Of a stretch of 64,000 nt of DNA, positions 18,553-27,794 are shown piece by piece (within the stretch, counting starts at the first letter, position 1; each line of letters starts with the position of its first letter). The notes below the pieces were generated by a model. That model saw only the letters and a list, made by a program, of their open reading frames with translations, did no database searches and was not told the DNA's origin. A program made the position numbers and the translations under genes. Source of the DNA: an uncultured Clostridia bacterium (GTDB lineage Bacteria > Bacillota > Clostridia > Oscillospirales > QAKW01); the NCBI GenBank assembly GCA_944385895.1, contig CALWYZ010000004.1, positions 1 to 64,000 on the forward strand, written 5' to 3'.

Positions 18553-19166
18553 TATCTGACCTTTATAAGCAAAAGTCTGCCTTTTTTTACGCTGACGACC
18601 GCTTTGTCGCCCATCACCTGATTACTTATGCCGTAAGGGTAGTCACAGTTGATGCAGGCATCTTCAAGCGGATACTTTGCGCCCGTGACCGTGACTTTGC
18701 CTGCGCTGCCGCAGAATGCAAGCAGTGAAAAATAGGAAAAGCTTTTTGAAACGGTTTTGGGAGCACTGCCCACTATTTCCATTTCGGAAAAGTCATCTGC
18801 AAGCATTGCCGTCTTTCCCTTTTCAAAAAGATTCAAAAGGACTGACACATTTCCCAGCGTATGATCAAGTCTGTCTCCGGCAGCCCCAAGCAGCAGAAAA
18901 TCATCAAAGCCGCGTGAAAGAGCCTCTTTTGCGGCGTACACCGTGTCGGTATCGTCTTTTTCACAAGGCAAGGTTATTGTCTCGATATCGGAATCAGGCT
19001 TTGGATGTGAGTCAAAATCACCGATTATAAGATGAGGTGTTATTTCAAGTTTCTGAGCATTATACAGTCCGCTGTCACAACAGATGATATAATCATCGGT
19101 TTTCAGATATTTTTTTATTGCGGATACATTGTTTATAGCCGCGCCTCCTATTATTACACAGCGCAT
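18552..19166 (-). CDS. thiN: thiamine diphosphokinase
   Basis: A 204-residue protein with the family's order of motifs: DDYIICCDSGLYNAQKLEITPHLIIGDFDSHPKP, then CEKDDTDTVYAAKEAL and LLGAAGDRLDHTLGN, and a C-terminal beta domain. It turns thiamine directly into thiamine diphosphate with ATP. Because it uses free thiamine, the thiamine monophosphate made by ThiE must first lose its phosphate. It is the last gene of the riboswitch-controlled operon and overlaps cytX by 13 bases. Confidence 0.93.
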   Translation of the reverse strand: MRCVIIGGAAINNVSAIKKYLKTDDYIICCDSGLYNAQKLEITPHLIIGDFDSHPKPDSDIETITLPCEKDDTDTVYAAKEALSRGFDDFLLLGAAGDRLDHTLGNVSVLLNLFEKGKTAMLADDFSEMEIVGSAPKTVSKSFSYFSLLAFCGSAGKVTVTGAKYPLEDACINCDYPYGISNQVMGDKAVVSVKKGRLLLIKVR

Positions 19167-20335
19167 TTTTTACACTTCTTTCTTATAAATCCTACCACAA
19201 GACAAAGCGCAAAAGTGACCGCCATTGCGGGAATCGTACTCCCCGTTATAAGGTCAACACGCATAAAGAGACGGTAACATACAAAGCCTATGGCCCATAC
19301 CGCAAGATTTATCCAATCAAAGTTCTGCTCACTGCTGTTTTTCTTAAAGACAAAAAAGTCTGCTACAAGCACTGCTATCATAGGTGCAAATACAGAACCT
19401 ATAAAGTACAAAAATCCTGTTATGTCATCCATTGGGAAAATAATTGCAAGCACCGTTCCCACGCCCGTAACCGCCAGAGCAAACCACTTTGCGTTCAGCT
19501 TGCCGCTTAAAGACAGCGCCGAGACTCCGGCAGAGTATGCATCAAGATAAGTAGTTGTCACGGTTGAGAAAACAATGATAACAAGGCCTGCCATTCCGAG
19601 TCCGGCTTTCAGCATTATCTGCGCTATGTCCGAGCTGCCGGCAAGCGCCGAGGCACCCATGCCTATAAAATACATCCAGCAGCTGATAATACTGTATGTA
19701 ACAGCGCTGACAACAGACGCCTTTACCGGTTTTTGCGCACTGCTTGTGTAATCGCTTATAAGCGGAAGCCATGACAGAGGCATCGCTATAGCAAGCTCTA
19801 TTGCGCTTCCCATGGAAATGCCGTCTCCCGTGTTCCACGCGCCGCTGCCGTCAACAAATATGACCTTACAAAGAATAATCGTCAGCACAAACAATGCAGC
19901 CATTGCAACGGTATTGAGCTTTTCAAGACTTTTTATTCCTATATATATCCATAATGCGATAAGCACGCCTATAACCAAACACCAGACCCAGCTGCCGGTT
20001 TTGAAAATACCGTTTGCGGCAAGAGAGCCGTCATAAATCATGATTGCCGTCCAGCCTACAAGCTGAGCGATATTAAGAGCGCAAAAAAGCAGACTTCCGT
20101 ATCTTCCAAACGATAATTTAACAGTCTCCATAGCACTTTTTCTTGTCTTAGCCCCGACAACTCCGGCCAAAAACATTAAAAATCCGCCGATTACATGTCC
20201 GATAATTATTGCAGCAGCTCCGCGGGCAAGACCCAGCGATGCAAATGCCGTGCCGGACAGTATCTCCGCAAGCGACACCCCCGCTCCGAACCAGATAAGA
20301 CCGTTTGCAAAAAGCGATGTACCTTTGTTTTCCAT
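19154..20335 (-). CDS. cytX: putative hydroxymethylpyrimidine transporter CytX
   Basis: A 393-residue membrane protein of the NCS1 (cytosine/purine permease) family with about 12 helices. The opening LIWFGAGVSLAEILSGTAFASLGLARGAAAIIIGHVIGG is typical of the CytX branch, which is repeatedly found in thi operons and is predicted to import the pyrimidine half of thiamine. Position between thiD and thiN supports this. The substrate has not been shown here. Confidence 0.88.
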   Translation of the reverse strand: MENKGTSLFANGLIWFGAGVSLAEILSGTAFASLGLARGAAAIIIGHVIGGFLMFLAGVVGAKTRKSAMETVKLSFGRYGSLLFCALNIAQLVGWTAIMIYDGSLAANGIFKTGSWVWCLVIGVLIALWIYIGIKSLEKLNTVAMAALFVLTIILCKVIFVDGSGAWNTGDGISMGSAIELAIAMPLSWLPLISDYTSSAQKPVKASVVSAVTYSIISCWMYFIGMGASALAGSSDIAQIMLKAGLGMAGLVIIVFSTVTTTYLDAYSAGVSALSLSGKLNAKWFALAVTGVGTVLAIIFPMDDITGFLYFIGSVFAPMIAVLVADFFVFKKNSSEQNFDWINLAVWAIGFVCYRLFMRVDLITGSTIPAMAVTFALCLVVGFIRKKCKKCAV

Positions 20336-20336
20336 A

Positions 20337-21128
20337 TCAATAGTCCCCCTTTATATCAAAAGCATGATTTAGGGGGCCTGAGCCGTGTCCCAGATCCAGC
20401 ATAGCCGAAAGCGCGCCTGATATATACCGCTTTGCGCTCTCAACAGCCTTTTCAAGCGTATAGCCCTTTGCAAGATTTGACGCCACAGCGCTTGACAGCG
20501 TACAGCCGGTACCATGGGTATTGGGATTGTCGATTCGCTTTACATTGAACCAGACCGCCTTTCCGTCTTTGAAAAGCAGGTCTGAAGCGTCATTCACATT
20601 ATGACCGCCCTTCAATAAAACGGCACATCCGAATTTATCGTAAATATCAGCCGCCGCAAGTTCCATTTCGGATTTATCATTTATTTTTTTACCGCACAGA
20701 ATCTGCGCCTCCGGTATATTCGGAGTTATAAGAGTGCTGAGCGGGAATAGCCGCTCTGTCAGGGCATTAACCGCGCTGTCCTCAATCAGCACCGCCCCGC
20801 TTGTCGCTACCATAACAGGATCGACAACTATATTTTCGGCATTGTACTTTGCAAGCTTGTCGGCTATCACCTCTATCAGAGCGGCGTTTGATACCATTCC
20901 GATTTTGACAGCGTTCGGGTAAATATCCGTAAAAACACTGTCAAGCTGCAGTCCCAGAAACTCCGGACTGACATTATAAATTCCCTGAACGCCGGTTGTA
21001 TTTTGAGCTGTCAAGGCTGTGATCGCACTCATGGCATATACCCCGTTTGCGGTCATTGTCTTGATATCGGCTTGTATTCCGGCGCCTCCGCAGGAATCAC
21101 TTCCCGCGATTGTTAATGCTGTTTTCAT
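20337..21128 (-). CDS. thiD: hydroxymethylpyrimidine/phosphomethylpyrimidine kinase
   Basis: A 263-residue ribokinase-fold protein: AGSDSCGGAGIQADIKTM at the start, DPVMVATSGAVLIEDSAV in the middle and HGTGCTLSSAVASNLAKGY with the catalytic Asp/Gly loop replaced by the family's usual GTGC form. It phosphorylates imported HMP twice to give HMP-PP for ThiE. It stands 64 bases after the HAD gene, the largest gap in the operon, and is followed at once by cytX. Confidence 0.93.
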   Translation of the reverse strand: MKTALTIAGSDSCGGAGIQADIKTMTANGVYAMSAITALTAQNTTGVQGIYNVSPEFLGLQLDSVFTDIYPNAVKIGMVSNAALIEVIADKLAKYNAENIVVDPVMVATSGAVLIEDSAVNALTERLFPLSTLITPNIPEAQILCGKKINDKSEMELAAADIYDKFGCAVLLKGGHNVNDASDLLFKDGKAVWFNVKRIDNPNTHGTGCTLSSAVASNLAKGYTLEKAVESAKRYISGALSAMLDLGHGSGPLNHAFDIKGDY

Positions 21129-21192
21129 TTTTTTCTCCTAACATTAATTTTATATAGCGGAAAAAAGTGGTGCCCCCGATTTCCCGCTTTAT

Positions 21193-21840
21193 TTACATTT
21201 TTATTATTTCGTTTATTATACTGTCTGTATTTTCAAGTGTATCATAATACAGATCGGATACTTCTTTCATGCTTCCGCTGTATTTCTGTGTAACGGCGTC
21301 GTGCACGCCCAGTATCTTCATACCGGCAGCTTTTGCGTTTTCGGCCGGCAAAACAGTATCCTCCGCGACACAGCACTCATAGGTATGCAGCCCGGCGGAT
21401 TTTGCAATCTCATAAAAAATATCCGGTTTGGATTTTTTTATATCGCAGTAATGCTTATCAAAAAGCTGCCACATGGAAAGACGAGTAAGAACCGACTCTG
21501 CTATCTGGCGGCTTGAAGCGGTGGCAAGAATAAGAATAATGCCGAGTTTTTTTAGACATTTTAAAAGCTTTATTGCCCCCGGTTTATCTTTAACGTCCTT
21601 ATAATTTTCAATTATCTGGCAGTTAATATCATCATAAATCTTTTCAGAAGTGTCGTTTACCGAATACTGCTGCTTTACATATTCAATAAATTGACTTATA
21701 TTCATATAAAATATTTTATCGTCAAGTCCGGGCTGAGGAGCAATTCCCAGAGAATTCAAATAGTCGCTTCCTACATGCGTCCATAGAGGCATGGAATCTA
21801 TTATCGTCCCGTCCATATCGAAAATCACAGCTTTTATCAT
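21193..21840 (-). CDS. HAD-family phosphatase, candidate thiamine monophosphate phosphatase
   Basis: A 215-residue HAD hydrolase with motif I FDMDGTIID (both Asp), a cap domain, motif II ILATASS, the motif III Lys in DIKKSKPD and the motif IV acid in EDTVLPAENAKAAGM. It lies two bases after thiE and before thiD. The operon has ThiE, which makes thiamine monophosphate, and ThiN, which needs free thiamine, but no ThiL. A phosphatase is needed in between and this is the only candidate in the operon. That role is inference; the fold and active site are clear. Confidence 0.85.
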   Translation of the reverse strand: MIKAVIFDMDGTIIDSMPLWTHVGSDYLNSLGIAPQPGLDDKIFYMNISQFIEYVKQQYSVNDTSEKIYDDINCQIIENYKDVKDKPGAIKLLKCLKKLGIILILATASSRQIAESVLTRLSMWQLFDKHYCDIKKSKPDIFYEIAKSAGLHTYECCVAEDTVLPAENAKAAGMKILGVHDAVTQKYSGSMKEVSDLYYDTLENTDSIINEIIKM

Positions 21841-21842
21841 AT

Positions 21843-22469
21843 TTACAGCTCCTTTGCAAGCGTCAAAAGCTGACTTGCCGCGTTTTTTACGTCTGCAGCG
21901 GCAAATACGGCGCTGACAACCGCTACACCGGAAATGCCGCTGCCCTTGAGTTTTAAAATATTATTGCAGTTTATACCGCCAATAGCAACAACCGGTATTG
22001 AAACAGCGCTGCAAATGCTGCGCAACGTATCAAGTGAAACTGAGTCTGCATCTGTTTTTGTCCCTGTCGGAAAAATCGCGCCTACCCCTATATAATCCGC
22101 ACCTGCCGCCTGAGCGTCCAGTGCCTGCTGTACAGTGGATGCAGACACTCCTATTATCCTGTCGTCACCCAGTATATGTCTGGCTTTCTGCGCTTCCATA
22201 TCGCTTTGACCTATATGCACGCCGTGAGCGCCGCACTCAAGAGCAATATCGACGTCATCGTTTACAATAAACGTAACGCCATGTTCATCACATACTTTTT
22301 TTATCCGTATTGCTTCATTCAGAAAATCGTCATGGCCCAGATTCTTTTCCCTAAGCTGTATCATGGTAACGCCTCCGGCAACCGCAGATTCCACAACACT
22401 TTCAAGCGTTCTCCCGTTAAGCCATGACCTATCTGTGACAGCATATAGCAGAAGGTCATCTGATTTCAT
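21843..22469 (-). CDS. thiE: thiamine-phosphate synthase
   Basis: About 208 residues, TIM-barrel enzyme joining HMP-PP and thiazole phosphate. Motifs are LYAVTDRSWL, TMIQLREKN, IVNDDVDIALECGAHGVHIGQSD, IIGVSAST, GADYIGVGAIFPTGTKTDAD and VVAIGGI. The ATG at 22469 is chosen because AGGGGG lies before it; a longer frame from 22496 would ignore that SD. It overlaps the end of thiM by 14 bases. Confidence 0.95.
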   Translation of the reverse strand: MKSDDLLLYAVTDRSWLNGRTLESVVESAVAGGVTMIQLREKNLGHDDFLNEAIRIKKVCDEHGVTFIVNDDVDIALECGAHGVHIGQSDMEAQKARHILGDDRIIGVSASTVQQALDAQAAGADYIGVGAIFPTGTKTDADSVSLDTLRSICSAVSIPVVAIGGINCNNILKLKGSGISGVAVVSAVFAAADVKNAASQLLTLAKEL

Positions 22470-23274
22470 ATTTAGCCCCCTGTGACAGTTTGTCACCTGT
22501 CATATTGTAAAGAGCGTCTATTATATAGCCTCGAAGTGCGCAGTTTCCGTCTTTTTGGTCCATTTTCAGAACACCCAGCTGACCGGCATAGCCCATAGCG
22601 CAAACTGCCGCCGCAACAGCGGTACACATATCATCGGGGTTAGCTGCAGCAAAAGCTGCACAAATTGCCGAAAGCTGGCATCCGGTGCCTGTTATACGGC
22701 TCATCTGCGCAGCACCGTTGCGGATAATATAGCATTTTTCGGCATCGCTTACAAGATCGATTTTACCTGTAACGGCTATAACGGCTCCTGTATTTTTTGC
22801 AAATTCTTTTACAAATGCTACAGCAGTGTCAAGATTTTCCTCCGTCACGGCGTCCTGCTCAGCCGCGTCTACTCCCGATGTAAATCCGCTGCCGCAAGCC
22901 AGGGTTTTTATTTCCGAAATGTTTCCGCGTATCACCTGCGGCTTTACCTTTTCCATGATCTCAAGCGCAGTTTTTGTGCGCAACGCAGAAGCTCCGGCTC
23001 CAACGGGATCGAGCACTACCGGATGTCCCAGCTGAGATGCAGTCTTGCCGGCATCAAACATTGCAGGTATTGTACGCTGGTTTAAAGTGCCTATGTTAAT
23101 TACAAGAGCATTGCAAATAGAAGTAATATCGGATGTTTCTTCTATATCGTCTGCCATTATGGGAGAGCCTCCAATTGCAAGCAGTGCATTGGCAACATCA
23201 TTTACCGTCACATAGTTTGTAATACAGTGCACAAGCGGACATTTCTCTCTTACATTTTCAAGACTTTTTTTCAT
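22456..23274 (-). CDS. thiM: hydroxyethylthiazole kinase
   Basis: A 272-residue ribokinase-like protein with CPLVHCITNYVTVNDVANALLAIGGSPIMADD, VVLDPVGAGAS and GTGCQLSAICAAFAAANP. It phosphorylates salvaged thiazole for ThiE. It is the first gene after the TPP riboswitch. AAAGGAAG lies before the ATG. Since no thiC or thiG is seen here, the operon as a whole looks like salvage. Confidence 0.95.
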   Translation of the reverse strand: MKKSLENVREKCPLVHCITNYVTVNDVANALLAIGGSPIMADDIEETSDITSICNALVINIGTLNQRTIPAMFDAGKTASQLGHPVVLDPVGAGASALRTKTALEIMEKVKPQVIRGNISEIKTLACGSGFTSGVDAAEQDAVTEENLDTAVAFVKEFAKNTGAVIAVTGKIDLVSDAEKCYIIRNGAAQMSRITGTGCQLSAICAAFAAANPDDMCTAVAAAVCAMGYAGQLGVLKMDQKDGNCALRGYIIDALYNMTGDKLSQGAKYEIR

Positions 23275-25263: not shown

Positions 25264-25297
25264 AATAAAGTCCGGCCAAAAGCCGGGCTTTATTTTT
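25264..25297 (+). terminator. terminator of galM
   Basis: AATAAAGTCCGGC pairs with GCCGGGCTTTATT, with one wobble, followed by TTTTT. The stretch 25298-25432 beyond it is AT-rich and must hold the promoter of the next operon, but no clear boxes stand out. Confidence 0.8.
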
Positions 25298-25432: not shown

Positions 25433-26605
25433 ATGAGCAGAATATGTATACCCGACTACGAATATAAGGAAAGGATCCAGAAAGCTGCAAGGCTTATAAG
25501 AGAGCGCGGCTTGGATGTAATGGTGGTTTCCAGCACAGAATCAGACTATGCAAACGCAAGGTATTTCAGCGGATTCTGGCCGCTTTTTGAACGAGCGGGA
25601 GTAGCAATTTCAGCAAACGGAGATGCGGCATTAATGGTCGGACCCGAGTCAGCTGTGTTTGCAAAGGATTTTGGAAAAATTGAAAAACAGTTTGTATTGC
25701 GCGAATTTCGCGAGTCAGCCGATCCGTCATACCCGGAGCTTCACGCCGACACATTTGCAGACGTCTTTAAAGCAATCGGAGTAAGCGGCAAACATATAAA
25801 AATCGGTCTTGGCAGCTATGTCGAATGTACACTGCCTATATTTGAAGGATTGCGTGACAGCTTTCCTGAGGCAAAAATCGTCAAATGCAATGACATTATG
25901 GTAACGCTGCGTCAGATAAAAAGTGAAAACGAACTTGCCTGTATAAAAGAAGGTTTTAGAATTATAGAACTAGCAACAGACGAAGTTATTAAAAATCTGC
26001 GTCCCGGTGTAACTGAACTTGAAATGGTAGGAGTTGCACAAAAGGTAATATATGAAAACGGAGCAGAGTATGAAGGTCTTCCAATGTATGTTTTCAGCGA
26101 AGAATCAACACGTCATGCCATCAGCCGTTCGCGTTACCGTACACTGAAAAAGGGCGATATCGTCCAGCTCAATTTATCTGCAAAAATTGACGGATATTCT
26201 CCTTCCATAGGGTTGCCTGTCGTTCTGGGAAAATTAGAAGGCGAGCGCAGGCGCATCGTTGAATTTTGTTTAAAGGCCCATAATTGGACAACGGAGCAGA
26301 TAAAAGCCGGAGTTACCGCCAGTGATATTGCAAAAGACTTTTACCGTTTATATGAAGAAAACGGCATGAAAGAAAACTATGTTTATGGACCCTGCCACGG
26401 TACCGGCATGATAGAGGTCGAGGCTCCTTGGATGGAGACAATAAGTGATTATAAGCTTGAGGAAAATATGACATTCCAAGTTGATACGTTTATATCCGGT
26501 CCTACCTTCGGTGTGCGCTGGGAAAAAGGTGTTGCCGTTAAAAAAGACGGATGCCTTTCAATGACAGACTATCTGGGGAAAGGAATAATTGAAATCAATG
26601 GCTGA
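25433..26605 (+). CDS. creatinase-like M24 family protein lacking two metal-ligand Asp
   Basis: About 390 residues: an N-terminal creatinase domain (to about residue 160) and a C-terminal pita-bread fold. Active M24 aminopeptidases carry two Asp in 'D.GA..gY.sD.tR'; here the stretch reads NLSAKIDGYSPSIGLPV, so both are replaced. His in PCHGTGM, Glu in EVEAPW and Glu in RWEKGVAV remain. This is the layout of creatinase-like enzymes that work without metal, or of a binding protein. The ATG at 25433 follows AGGAGAG. It is the first gene of a tight cassette with an ASRT-domain gene and a creatininase-family gene, so C-N bond cleavage of a small guanidino- or amide compound is a fair guess. Confidence 0.8.
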   Translation: MSRICIPDYEYKERIQKAARLIRERGLDVMVVSSTESDYANARYFSGFWPLFERAGVAISANGDAALMVGPESAVFAKDFGKIEKQFVLREFRESADPSYPELHADTFADVFKAIGVSGKHIKIGLGSYVECTLPIFEGLRDSFPEAKIVKCNDIMVTLRQIKSENELACIKEGFRIIELATDEVIKNLRPGVTELEMVGVAQKVIYENGAEYEGLPMYVFSEESTRHAISRSRYRTLKKGDIVQLNLSAKIDGYSPSIGLPVVLGKLEGERRRIVEFCLKAHNWTTEQIKAGVTASDIAKDFYRLYEENGMKENYVYGPCHGTGMIEVEAPWMETISDYKLEENMTFQVDTFISGPTFGVRWEKGVAVKKDGCLSMTDYLGKGIIEING

Positions 26606-26969
26606 CGGAGCAGGTAAAAAAATATGGATAATACCCGACTGCGAACTGCCGCATGAAGGTAACGGAGTACTTAAAGGTCATGAATCTGTAATTGTGGTAA
26701 ACGATAGTGACAGTGACGCCGAAATTACAGTAAAACTGTTTTTTACAAATGACAAACCCTTTGAAAATATTAAATGGAATGTAAAAGCAAACAGAGTACG
26801 ATGTTTTAGAATGAATAATACAGATGATATGTGCGGATTTAAAGTTCCTTTTGACACACAGTATGCAATGAAACTTGAAAGCAACTGCAATATCGTTGTC
26901 CAATATGGCAGACTTGACAACCGTCAGACTAATTTGGCATATTATACTACTCTTGGGTTTTATCAGTAA
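26598..26969 (+). CDS. ASRT-domain protein (sensory rhodopsin transducer family)
   Basis: A 123-residue single-domain protein. The family pattern is strong: GKKIWIIPDCELPHEGNGVLKGHESVIVVND near the start, NVKANRVRCFRMNN in the middle and VVQYGRLDNRQTNLAYYTTLGF at the end. The name comes from the Anabaena sensory rhodopsin transducer, but most members have no rhodopsin and were proposed to bind small molecules. The start may be this ATG or an in-frame TTG at 26589, which has the better spaced SD (AAAGGA). It overlaps the end of the M24 gene by 8 bases, so the two are translationally coupled. Confidence 0.85.
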   Translation: MADGAGKKIWIIPDCELPHEGNGVLKGHESVIVVNDSDSDAEITVKLFFTNDKPFENIKWNVKANRVRCFRMNNTDDMCGFKVPFDTQYAMKLESNCNIVVQYGRLDNRQTNLAYYTTLGFYQ

Positions 26970-27022
26970 TCGTTTCCAATAACTAATTTCGGATTTTTCC
27001 GGTTAAAGGTATGGTGATTTTA

Positions 27023-27757
27023 ATGCAGCTTAATTATTGTTTTCCGCTTGAACTTGAAAGAATTAGAAAAGAAAATATACCTGTTGTGATCGCAGGAGGC
27101 ACTGTTGAGTATCACGGTCCTCACTGCTGCTTGGGTTGTGACACTCTTGTTGCCCAGGGACTTATTGAAAAGCTGGCTCAAATCAAAGAAATATGCGTTG
27201 CCCCGTATATTTGTTACAGTCCATCCAGTTATGCTGTTGCAGATGAAAAAAGCGGTACTGTGCATGTGGAAGAGGATGCATTTGAGGCATATCTCTACTA
27301 TATTTTTTTCAGTCTTTTATCTTCCGGTCTCCATAACATTTATGTTGTAATTCACCACCAGTTTGAGCAGGAATCGCTCATGCCGATGACTTTATCTTAT
27401 ATGAAAGCGGCAAAACGTGCGACGATGAAATATCTTGAAAATACATTAGGACGTGGCTGGTGGGGCAGTGAAAAATACTCAAACTACTATGATCAACTTG
27501 AAGGTGCTGATAATCCTTTCGGATGGATAAAAGTTATTCCGACAATGAGCACAAATGTTCAAAATGCCACAGGATATGATCATGCAGGTAAATATGAGTG
27601 CTCAATACTGATGTCGCTCTACCCTGACGCTGTAAAACTTGAAAGACTTGGCGATATTAATCACTGGTTTACCAAAAGTGCTGCTGATGCAAATACCCAA
27701 CTTGGAGACAAAATGGTAGAACTTTCACTCGAATATCTTGCCGAAACAATAAAATAA
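27023..27757 (+). CDS. creatininase-family amidohydrolase, atypical
   Basis: About 244 residues. It starts with the family's first metal motif, here GGTVEYHGPHCCLGCDTL (compare 'GS.EQHG.HLPl.tD'), keeping Glu, His and Asp. The usual second motif 'NGHGGN' is replaced by VIHHQFEQE, so the second half of the site differs. Creatininase relatives open small cyclic amides. An in-frame ATG at 27011 lies too close to AAAGGT, so the ATG at 27023 is preferred; this is not certain. It closes the M24-ASRT cassette and is followed by a strong terminator. Confidence 0.8.
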   Translation: MQLNYCFPLELERIRKENIPVVIAGGTVEYHGPHCCLGCDTLVAQGLIEKLAQIKEICVAPYICYSPSSYAVADEKSGTVHVEEDAFEAYLYYIFFSLLSSGLHNIYVVIHHQFEQESLMPMTLSYMKAAKRATMKYLENTLGRGWWGSEKYSNYYDQLEGADNPFGWIKVIPTMSTNVQNATGYDHAGKYECSILMSLYPDAVKLERLGDINHWFTKSAADANTQLGDKMVELSLEYLAETIK

Positions 27758-27759
27758 TA

Positions 27760-27794
27760 AAAAGAGCAGTAAGAAAAATCTTACTGCTCTTTTA
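27760..27794. terminator. bidirectional terminator
   Basis: AAAGAGCAGTAAGA (27761-27774) pairs with TCTTACTGCTCTTT (27779-27792), with a T-run on either strand. It ends the creatininase cassette and, 160 nt after pyrI, probably the pyr operon. The stretch 27795-27952 between them is AT-rich and shows no gene. Confidence 0.85.

Follow-up and report, generated by a model that had tools for sequence, protein, structure and literature searches.

A widely conserved gene cassette of creatinase-like M24, ASRT-family and creatininase-family proteins in Clostridia, with a possible role in the catabolism of a sugar-derived compound

Introduction

Solo intracellular ASRT proteins are predicted, in the main text of De Souza, Iyer and Aravind (2009, PMC2739507), to be sugar sensors that act through protein contacts. 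The same text describes their genes (there called ASRAH) next to those of sugar ABC transporters, kinases and aldolases, and ASRT-linked sugar operons are in that sense an already published prediction. It also gives a ligand signature for the family, SHExxCxxN, with His25 and Cys29 in TM1070, and it makes no mention of creatininase or of Xaa-Pro/M24 proteins. For the ASRT protein of Anabaena, binding and bending of DNA and altered expression of a reporter have been reported, with a DNA affinity that is weak (about 10 uM) and weakly sequence-dependent (PMC8660804). For organisms other than Anabaena, what ASRT proteins do has been predicted from sequence, and the three soluble proteins described here make that prediction directly testable.

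Creatinase and ectoine hydrolase are M24 folds without the metal site that are nevertheless active. Ectoine hydrolase (DoeA/EutD) is in addition encoded in an operon with a second hydrolase. As to the creatininase family, IolN (3-dehydro-scyllo-inosose hydrolase) is a member that works in sugar/polyol catabolism, and shows that this fold can serve such pathways.

Here we analyse a stretch of 64,000 nucleotides of clostridial DNA (the window) in which genes of the three families form one cassette. ASRT is paired in it with a particular M24 subfamily and a particular creatininase subfamily, and this pairing is tight and widely kept. A search of the open-access literature, with subscription papers outside its scope, found no paper that combines M24, ASRT and creatininase proteins in such a cassette.

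Results and discussion

An intact tricistronic operon

The original prediction had placed a cassette of these three families at 25433-27757 of the window, and Pfam confirms the assignment, with all three proteins above the gathering score. We found the three genes to be intact and co-directional on the plus strand (Table 1, in which the first coordinate of each gene is its likely start), the ATG of the ASRT gene overlapping the final 8 nt of the M24 gene. Because there are terminators at both ends, and because the M24 and ASRT genes overlap, the three genes are one self-contained tricistronic operon between two terminators. Comparison with the nearest relatives gave, across all three genes, a pN of 0.04-0.21, a pS of 0.70-0.86 (near saturation) and a pN/pS of 0.05-0.25, so that amino-acid changes are rare at a point where synonymous sites are nearly saturated, and all three genes are thus under purifying selection. 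Decaying pseudogenes are ruled out by the open frames and by the strength of this selection.

Table 1. Features of the cassette and its borders, in window coordinates
Feature	Position	Strand	Evidence or remark
Intrinsic terminator of the aldose-epimerase gene	25264..25294	+	13-pair stem followed by a T run; parts that upstream gene from the cassette
M24-fold protein, 390 aa, creatinase-like with altered metal ligands	25433..26605	+	PF00557 and PF01321, alignments, AlphaFold model
ASRT-family protein, 123 aa from ATG 26598, predicted sugar-type small-molecule binder	26598..26969	+	PF07100, solved relatives, pocket signature
Creatininase-family protein, 244 aa from ATG 27023 (longer ORF opens at 27011)	27023..27757	+	PF02633, model, alignment with 1j2t
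Perfect 15-bp inverted repeat, bidirectional terminator between the cassette and convergent pyrI	27760..27793	.	Repeat sequence

Linkage of the three genes across species

By scanning one genome per GTDB species we obtained 73 loci from relatives. An M24 gene lies on the same strand and at most 700 bp from the ASRT gene in 70 of them, and a creatininase-family gene (CRN) is found within the examined locus DNA in 56, the gene order being M24-ASRT-CRN in 50 loci and ASRT-M24-CRN in 6. These counts come from direct BLAST, since automated gene calling at times placed a frame on the reverse strand across ASRT or CRN. The second sample consisted of 291 genomes of the same class, some of them common to both samples; 21 have a creatininase ortholog, 27 an M24 ortholog or close paralog and 56 some ASRT. 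The M24 gene is present in every one of the 21 creatininase-positive genomes, and an ASRT in 20 of them; the corresponding hypergeometric probabilities (6e-27 and 4e-15) take no account of shared ancestry and are indicative only. Better evidence than these probabilities is that linkage is kept despite rearrangement, with the order CRN-ASRT-M24 in genome G562, ASRT-M24-CRN in G441, M24-CRN with no ASRT between the two in G407, and CRN-M24 in G634, whose genome gave no ASRT match. Two further genomes (G491 and G556) have the creatininase gene on a separate contig. Culturable carriers include Diplocloster agilis, with M24 and ASRT alone, and Neobacillus notoginsengisoli. Chance adjacency is ruled out by the persistence of linkage across rearranged orders and many species. 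The gene-neighbourhood survey that the original prediction had called for thus finds the genes together in dozens of species and in several orders, which supports the functional coupling proposed there. Since M24-CRN pairs without an adjacent ASRT exist (G407, G634), the ASRT protein is likely accessory rather than catalytic, and not strictly required. In the plasmid collection, the regions inspected held no M24-type cassette, and an ASRT gene there sits with pyruvate oxidase, GMC oxidoreductase and glucosyltransferase-type genes.

The M24 protein

Matches of the M24 protein to Peptidase_M24 (96.5 bits, E 2e-27) and to Creatinase_N (40.9 bits, 4e-10) both exceed the Pfam gathering threshold, and the nearest PDB entry to its AlphaFold model (pLDDT 89) is creatinase 7yto (Z 39.8, rmsd 2.4, 367 aligned), tied with the Xanthomonas prolidase 5cde (Z 39.6) and with DoeA near (Z 37.9). 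The protein was said to have lost two Asp, and this is correct; a third ligand is changed as well. Its five metal-ligand positions are N247, S258, H322, D351 and E364 in place of the prolidase/aminopeptidase P set (Asp, Asp, His, Glu, Glu), the changes being D to N, D to S or A, and E to D, the last at Asp351. Including H228, the pattern H-N-(S/A)-H-D-E is present in 91 of 106 aligned M24 sequences, a set that also covers DoeA and paralogs of Gln-Gln pattern. Many polar residues of the pocket (E36, E53, E72, H322, E328, E330, D351, R362, E364) vary hardly or not at all, and the His/Asp/Glu set that remains could hold one metal.

The protein resembles creatinase (1chm, 7yto) in its full-length M24 fold and in the loss of the first two metal Asp. 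By alignment, creatinase (sequence checked against PDB 1chm) has N249, A260, H324, E358 and H376 at the five positions, so that its Asn249 and Ala260 correspond to N247 and S258 here, the latter being Ala in many orthologs; the equivalents of His324 and Arg64 are also kept. Unlike in creatinase, however, Glu262 is replaced by Gly260, Glu358 by Asp and His376 by Glu364, and the position of the canonical catalytic His232 is occupied by Ile230, with an invariant His228 two residues upstream. This two-residue offset in the alignment speaks against His228 as the exact equivalent of creatinase His232. The protein is not expected to bind creatine. With ectoine hydrolase DoeA/EutD it shares an M24 fold lacking the prolidase metal site and an operon that holds a second hydrolase, but it differs from it in having Asn247 rather than Glu at the first-ligand position, in an identity of about 17% and in its other operon partners. 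It also falls short of the NCBIfam equivalog cut-off for DoeA (51.8 against 613 bits), and score and first-ligand residue together rule out that it is a DoeA ortholog.

The creatininase-family protein

The third protein (residues numbered from 27011) matches PF02633 with 93.2 bits, against a gathering threshold of 31.3 (E 2e-26), and its model (pLDDT 87) aligns with creatininase 3a6g at Z 22.4 (rmsd 2.4, 215 aligned), unrelated folds reaching Z 6. The claim that its NGHGGN motif is lost stands for the motif itself, which is replaced (HHQFEQ here), but does not extend to the metal site. Four of the five ligands, E33, H35, D44 and H116, are retained, equivalent to Glu34, His36, Asp45 and His120 of creatininase 1j2t (aligned sequence checked, one Gly differing). 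The fifth position (Glu122) is F or T, with an invariant Glu119 adjoining, and H191 and E196 of the catalytic set are kept as equivalents of His178 and Glu183. Since most metal ligands are kept, the protein is probably a working metallohydrolase. It is like the creatininase family (1j2t, IolN, MftE) in fold, in four of the five metal ligands and in the catalytic pair, and unlike it in carrying HHQ(F/T)E where the family has its NGH-Y-E motif. It also scores far below every curated equivalog cut-off, with 55.4 against 235 bits for creatininase (TIGR04448), 49.6 against 245 for IolN (NF041098), of which it is no ortholog, and 46.2 against 172 for MftE (TIGR03964).

The ASRT protein and its changed pocket

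The ASRT protein matches PF07100 with 107.8 bits against a threshold of 25 (E 4e-31) and has solved relatives (2ii7 and 1nc7). With residues numbered from 26607, its pocket signature is H25, I29, N32 and C66. The Trp, His and Asn of the family (W7, H25, N32) are found in 74 of 74 close relatives, and in the same 74 position 29 is I or V, not the pocket Cys of SHExxCxxN. ASRT proteins encoded near an M24 gene have I, V or M at position 29 and Cys at position 66, and thus lack the ligand-contacting Cys29, whereas the 50 that have no M24 in the DNA examined carry Cys29 and His66. Two ASRT proteins carry the cassette-type signature as exceptions to this split, those of L062, where the M24 gene lies further off in the same cluster, and of L063; L093 is cut by a contig end. 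In a midpoint-rooted tree, the 92 ASRT proteins with the changed signature form one clade (support 0.91). The pocket change and the partnership with M24 thus go together, most likely with a single origin, and the changed pocket suggests a ligand or a mode of use unlike that of other ASRT proteins. For the rhodopsin partner that an Anabaena-type transducer would have, a search with PF01036 gave no match in the genome that carries the cassette, but equally none in its 14 controls.

Gene neighbourhoods in relatives

For several relatives, we found the cassette among genes of sugar uptake and phosphorylation. At L065, L069-L071 and L074, genes for LacI, ASRT, M24, class II ketose-bisphosphate aldolase (not called in L070), FGGY kinase, PfkB kinase and CRN form one block, with RbsA/RbsC/RbsB-type transport genes wherever the locus reaches that far. 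The Neobacillus locus L062 has LacI, M24, RbsB, RbsA, RbsC, ASRT and an L-ribulokinase-like gene, and in G562 the genes for RbsB, RbsC, RbsA, M24, ASRT, CRN, an M20 hydrolase and LacI adjoin one another. At L109 an ASRT gene is accompanied by RbsABC, LacI, a creatininase gene and an M24 gene whose product is more distant, at 28% identity to the M24 protein of the window. In G445 an M24 paralog and its ASRT lie beside a PTE-family hydrolase, with PfkB kinase and KDPG/KHG aldolase genes opposite. Neighbourhoods of the sugar-operon type set out in the main text of PMC2739507 are therefore seen in L062, L069, L071, L074 and G562 (in L109 as transport genes), and not in this window. Such neighbours stand out clearly only at the Lachnospiraceae-type, Bacillus and L109/G562 loci, the flanks being variable in most rumen/hindgut MAGs. 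Since the ABC substrate-binding proteins are dissimilar between loci, the ligand may differ between lineages; the binding protein of L074 points to no particular substrate, as it has many sugar-binding matches and no clear specific one. The neighbours favour a sugar-type substrate, as a class rather than a named compound. The small-molecule role foreseen in the original prediction is supported, and among the ligands listed there for screening the context speaks for sugars or their derivatives more than for guanidino compounds or hydantoins.

Other neighbours recur as well. A divergent AraC regulator gene is present in 44 of the 73 loci. A glycoside-hydrolase-like (GH-like) protein without a Pfam match is found near the cassette in 15 of the 73 loci and in G407, G441 and G634, once accompanied by a heparinase-like protein and a CBM9 protein. 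Members of this family, of about 715 aa, are encoded at L203:2370-4505 (-), L201:4796-6940 (+) and L060:8504-10681 (+), and a homolog in the own genome (L237) was scored with one in-frame TAA. At L060:2706-8351, from a yak caecum MAG, there are tandem cassettes, the first with AraC, an M24 paralog (25% identical), an M81/MlrC-like protein and a second ASRT, followed by AraC, M24, ASRT and the GH-like gene; the M81 protein occupies the place where a creatininase might be expected. A further M24 paralog subfamily (L215, L216, L217, L218 and L219), about 38% identical and with Gln at the H228 and N247 positions, regularly adjoins a PTE-family hydrolase and/or a protein of about 260 aa without a Pfam match, and its member at L217 also adjoins ASRT, near PfkB and KDPG/KHG aldolase genes. 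Four distant loci (L208, L068, L063 and L109) have a gene for a polysaccharide-deacetylase-like protein (PF01522 in L109, about 295 aa) close to ASRT/M24 genes; in the DNA examined at L063, M24 was not seen.

What the cassette may do

On balance, and with modest confidence, we take the cassette to be a catabolic module that acts on a small polyhydroxylated compound, probably derived from a sugar, and in which ASRT is the sensor or adaptor. This reading builds on what the sequences show: an operon whose genes stay linked across species, neighbours for sugar uptake and phosphorylation in several relatives, purifying selection, and altered sites that are conserved. In the steps that we propose, whose order is as conjectural as their chemistry, the substrate class and the role given to ASRT, the creatininase-family protein would hydrolyse a C-N or C-O bond with the help of metal, opening or cleaving a cyclic amide, a lactone or a similar compound. 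The M24 protein would bind that intermediate, or the one after it, in a pocket that is creatinase-like and probably works without metal, and perform a second cleavage, and ASRT would bind a sugar-type ligand and either modulate both enzymes or report the ligand. The product could then feed the sugar kinases and the aldolase found in the same cluster in some relatives. Counting against this module are the Ile230 at the canonical catalytic-His position of the M24 protein, the variable flanks in most rumen and hindgut MAGs, and the lack of sugar genes beside the cassette in its own genome. More speculative, and in our view a doubtful possibility, is that M24, ASRT and creatininase-family proteins form a physical complex, where ASRT, once it has bound its ligand, gates a metal-independent M24 protein with a new reaction on a sugar-derived substrate; if true, such a gated complex would be new catabolic chemistry and the first known enzyme partner of a solo ASRT. 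Very likely, a sizeable group of proteins in Clostridia of the herbivore gut, which are likely annotated as Xaa-Pro peptidases and creatininases, does neither.

We consider it unlikely that both enzymes act on a nitrogen-rich non-sugar compound (a modified amino acid, a cyclic dipeptide, an ectoine-like or a ureido compound), in the manner of EutD (DoeA)-EutE and with ASRT binding the same compound. C-N cleavage is the best-known activity of both families, DoeA is a close structural match that pairs with a second hydrolase in its operon, and the M81 peptidase of L060, the M20 hydrolase of G562, the PTE-family hydrolases beside M24 paralogs and the polysaccharide-deacetylase-like proteins would be fitting neighbours, but the transport and kinase genes are of sugar type, and DoeA is remote both in its first-ligand Glu and in its cut-off. 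Rather improbable is that the M24 protein is a pseudoenzyme which, with ASRT, forms a sugar-binding regulatory complex controlling the creatininase-like hydrolase or the AraC/LacI regulator. Replacement of three of five metal ligands, the Ile at the canonical His position and the divergent AraC gene at so many loci are compatible with such a complex; the near invariance of many polar pocket residues is not easily squared with it, and creatinase and ectoine hydrolase, whose folds the model matches, are active without the M24 metal site. We give little credence to the reading that ASRT regulates the operon by binding DNA, a role put forward for its Anabaena relative, and is no enzyme partner: the DNA binding reported there and the co-transcription of ASRT here would fit, but that binding is weak and hardly sequence-dependent, and AraC or LacI regulators are already present with many cassettes. 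A conventional creatinine/creatine degradation pair, which the folds, family names and structural matches to creatininase and creatinase might suggest, is ruled out for practical purposes by the site residues (Gly260 and Glu364) and the missed cut-offs, and would leave ASRT and the sugar kinases without a role.

The cassette in its own genome

The catabolic module that we favour stands apart from sugar genes in the host itself, a draft genome of 1.95 Mb with a single ASRT gene, a single creatininase-family gene and two M24 genes besides that of the cassette. One of these two, at C3, encodes a canonical prolidase that has the full set of metal ligands. No transporter, kinase or aldolase adjoins the cassette in this genome, and no ribose-type sugar transporter was recognised in the regions inspected near its RbsC-like genes (contig C16, also with matches, was left out). 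The closest relative (L002) has a YitT-family gene and AraC upstream of its cassette, and genes of pyrI/pyrB size and orientation downstream. The cassette still abuts pyrI/pyrB in this genome, and its AraC (75% identical to the best match among the loci) and YitT genes (85.6% to L002) are on another contig (C7 for AraC), apart from the cassette. That AraC and YitT flank the cassette in L002 but share another contig here is evidence of a rearrangement that parted the regulator from the operon, and AraC survives in trans. The AraC and YitT-family genes that flank the cassette in L002 are found together at L239:6148-7944. Elsewhere in the window, at 19154-23274 on the minus strand, there is a thiamine salvage cluster of a CytX-like transporter, ThiD, a HAD-like phosphatase, ThiE and ThiM, called by NCBIfam matches for CytX, ThiD and ThiM and by reading of the sequence for ThiE and the HAD-like protein.
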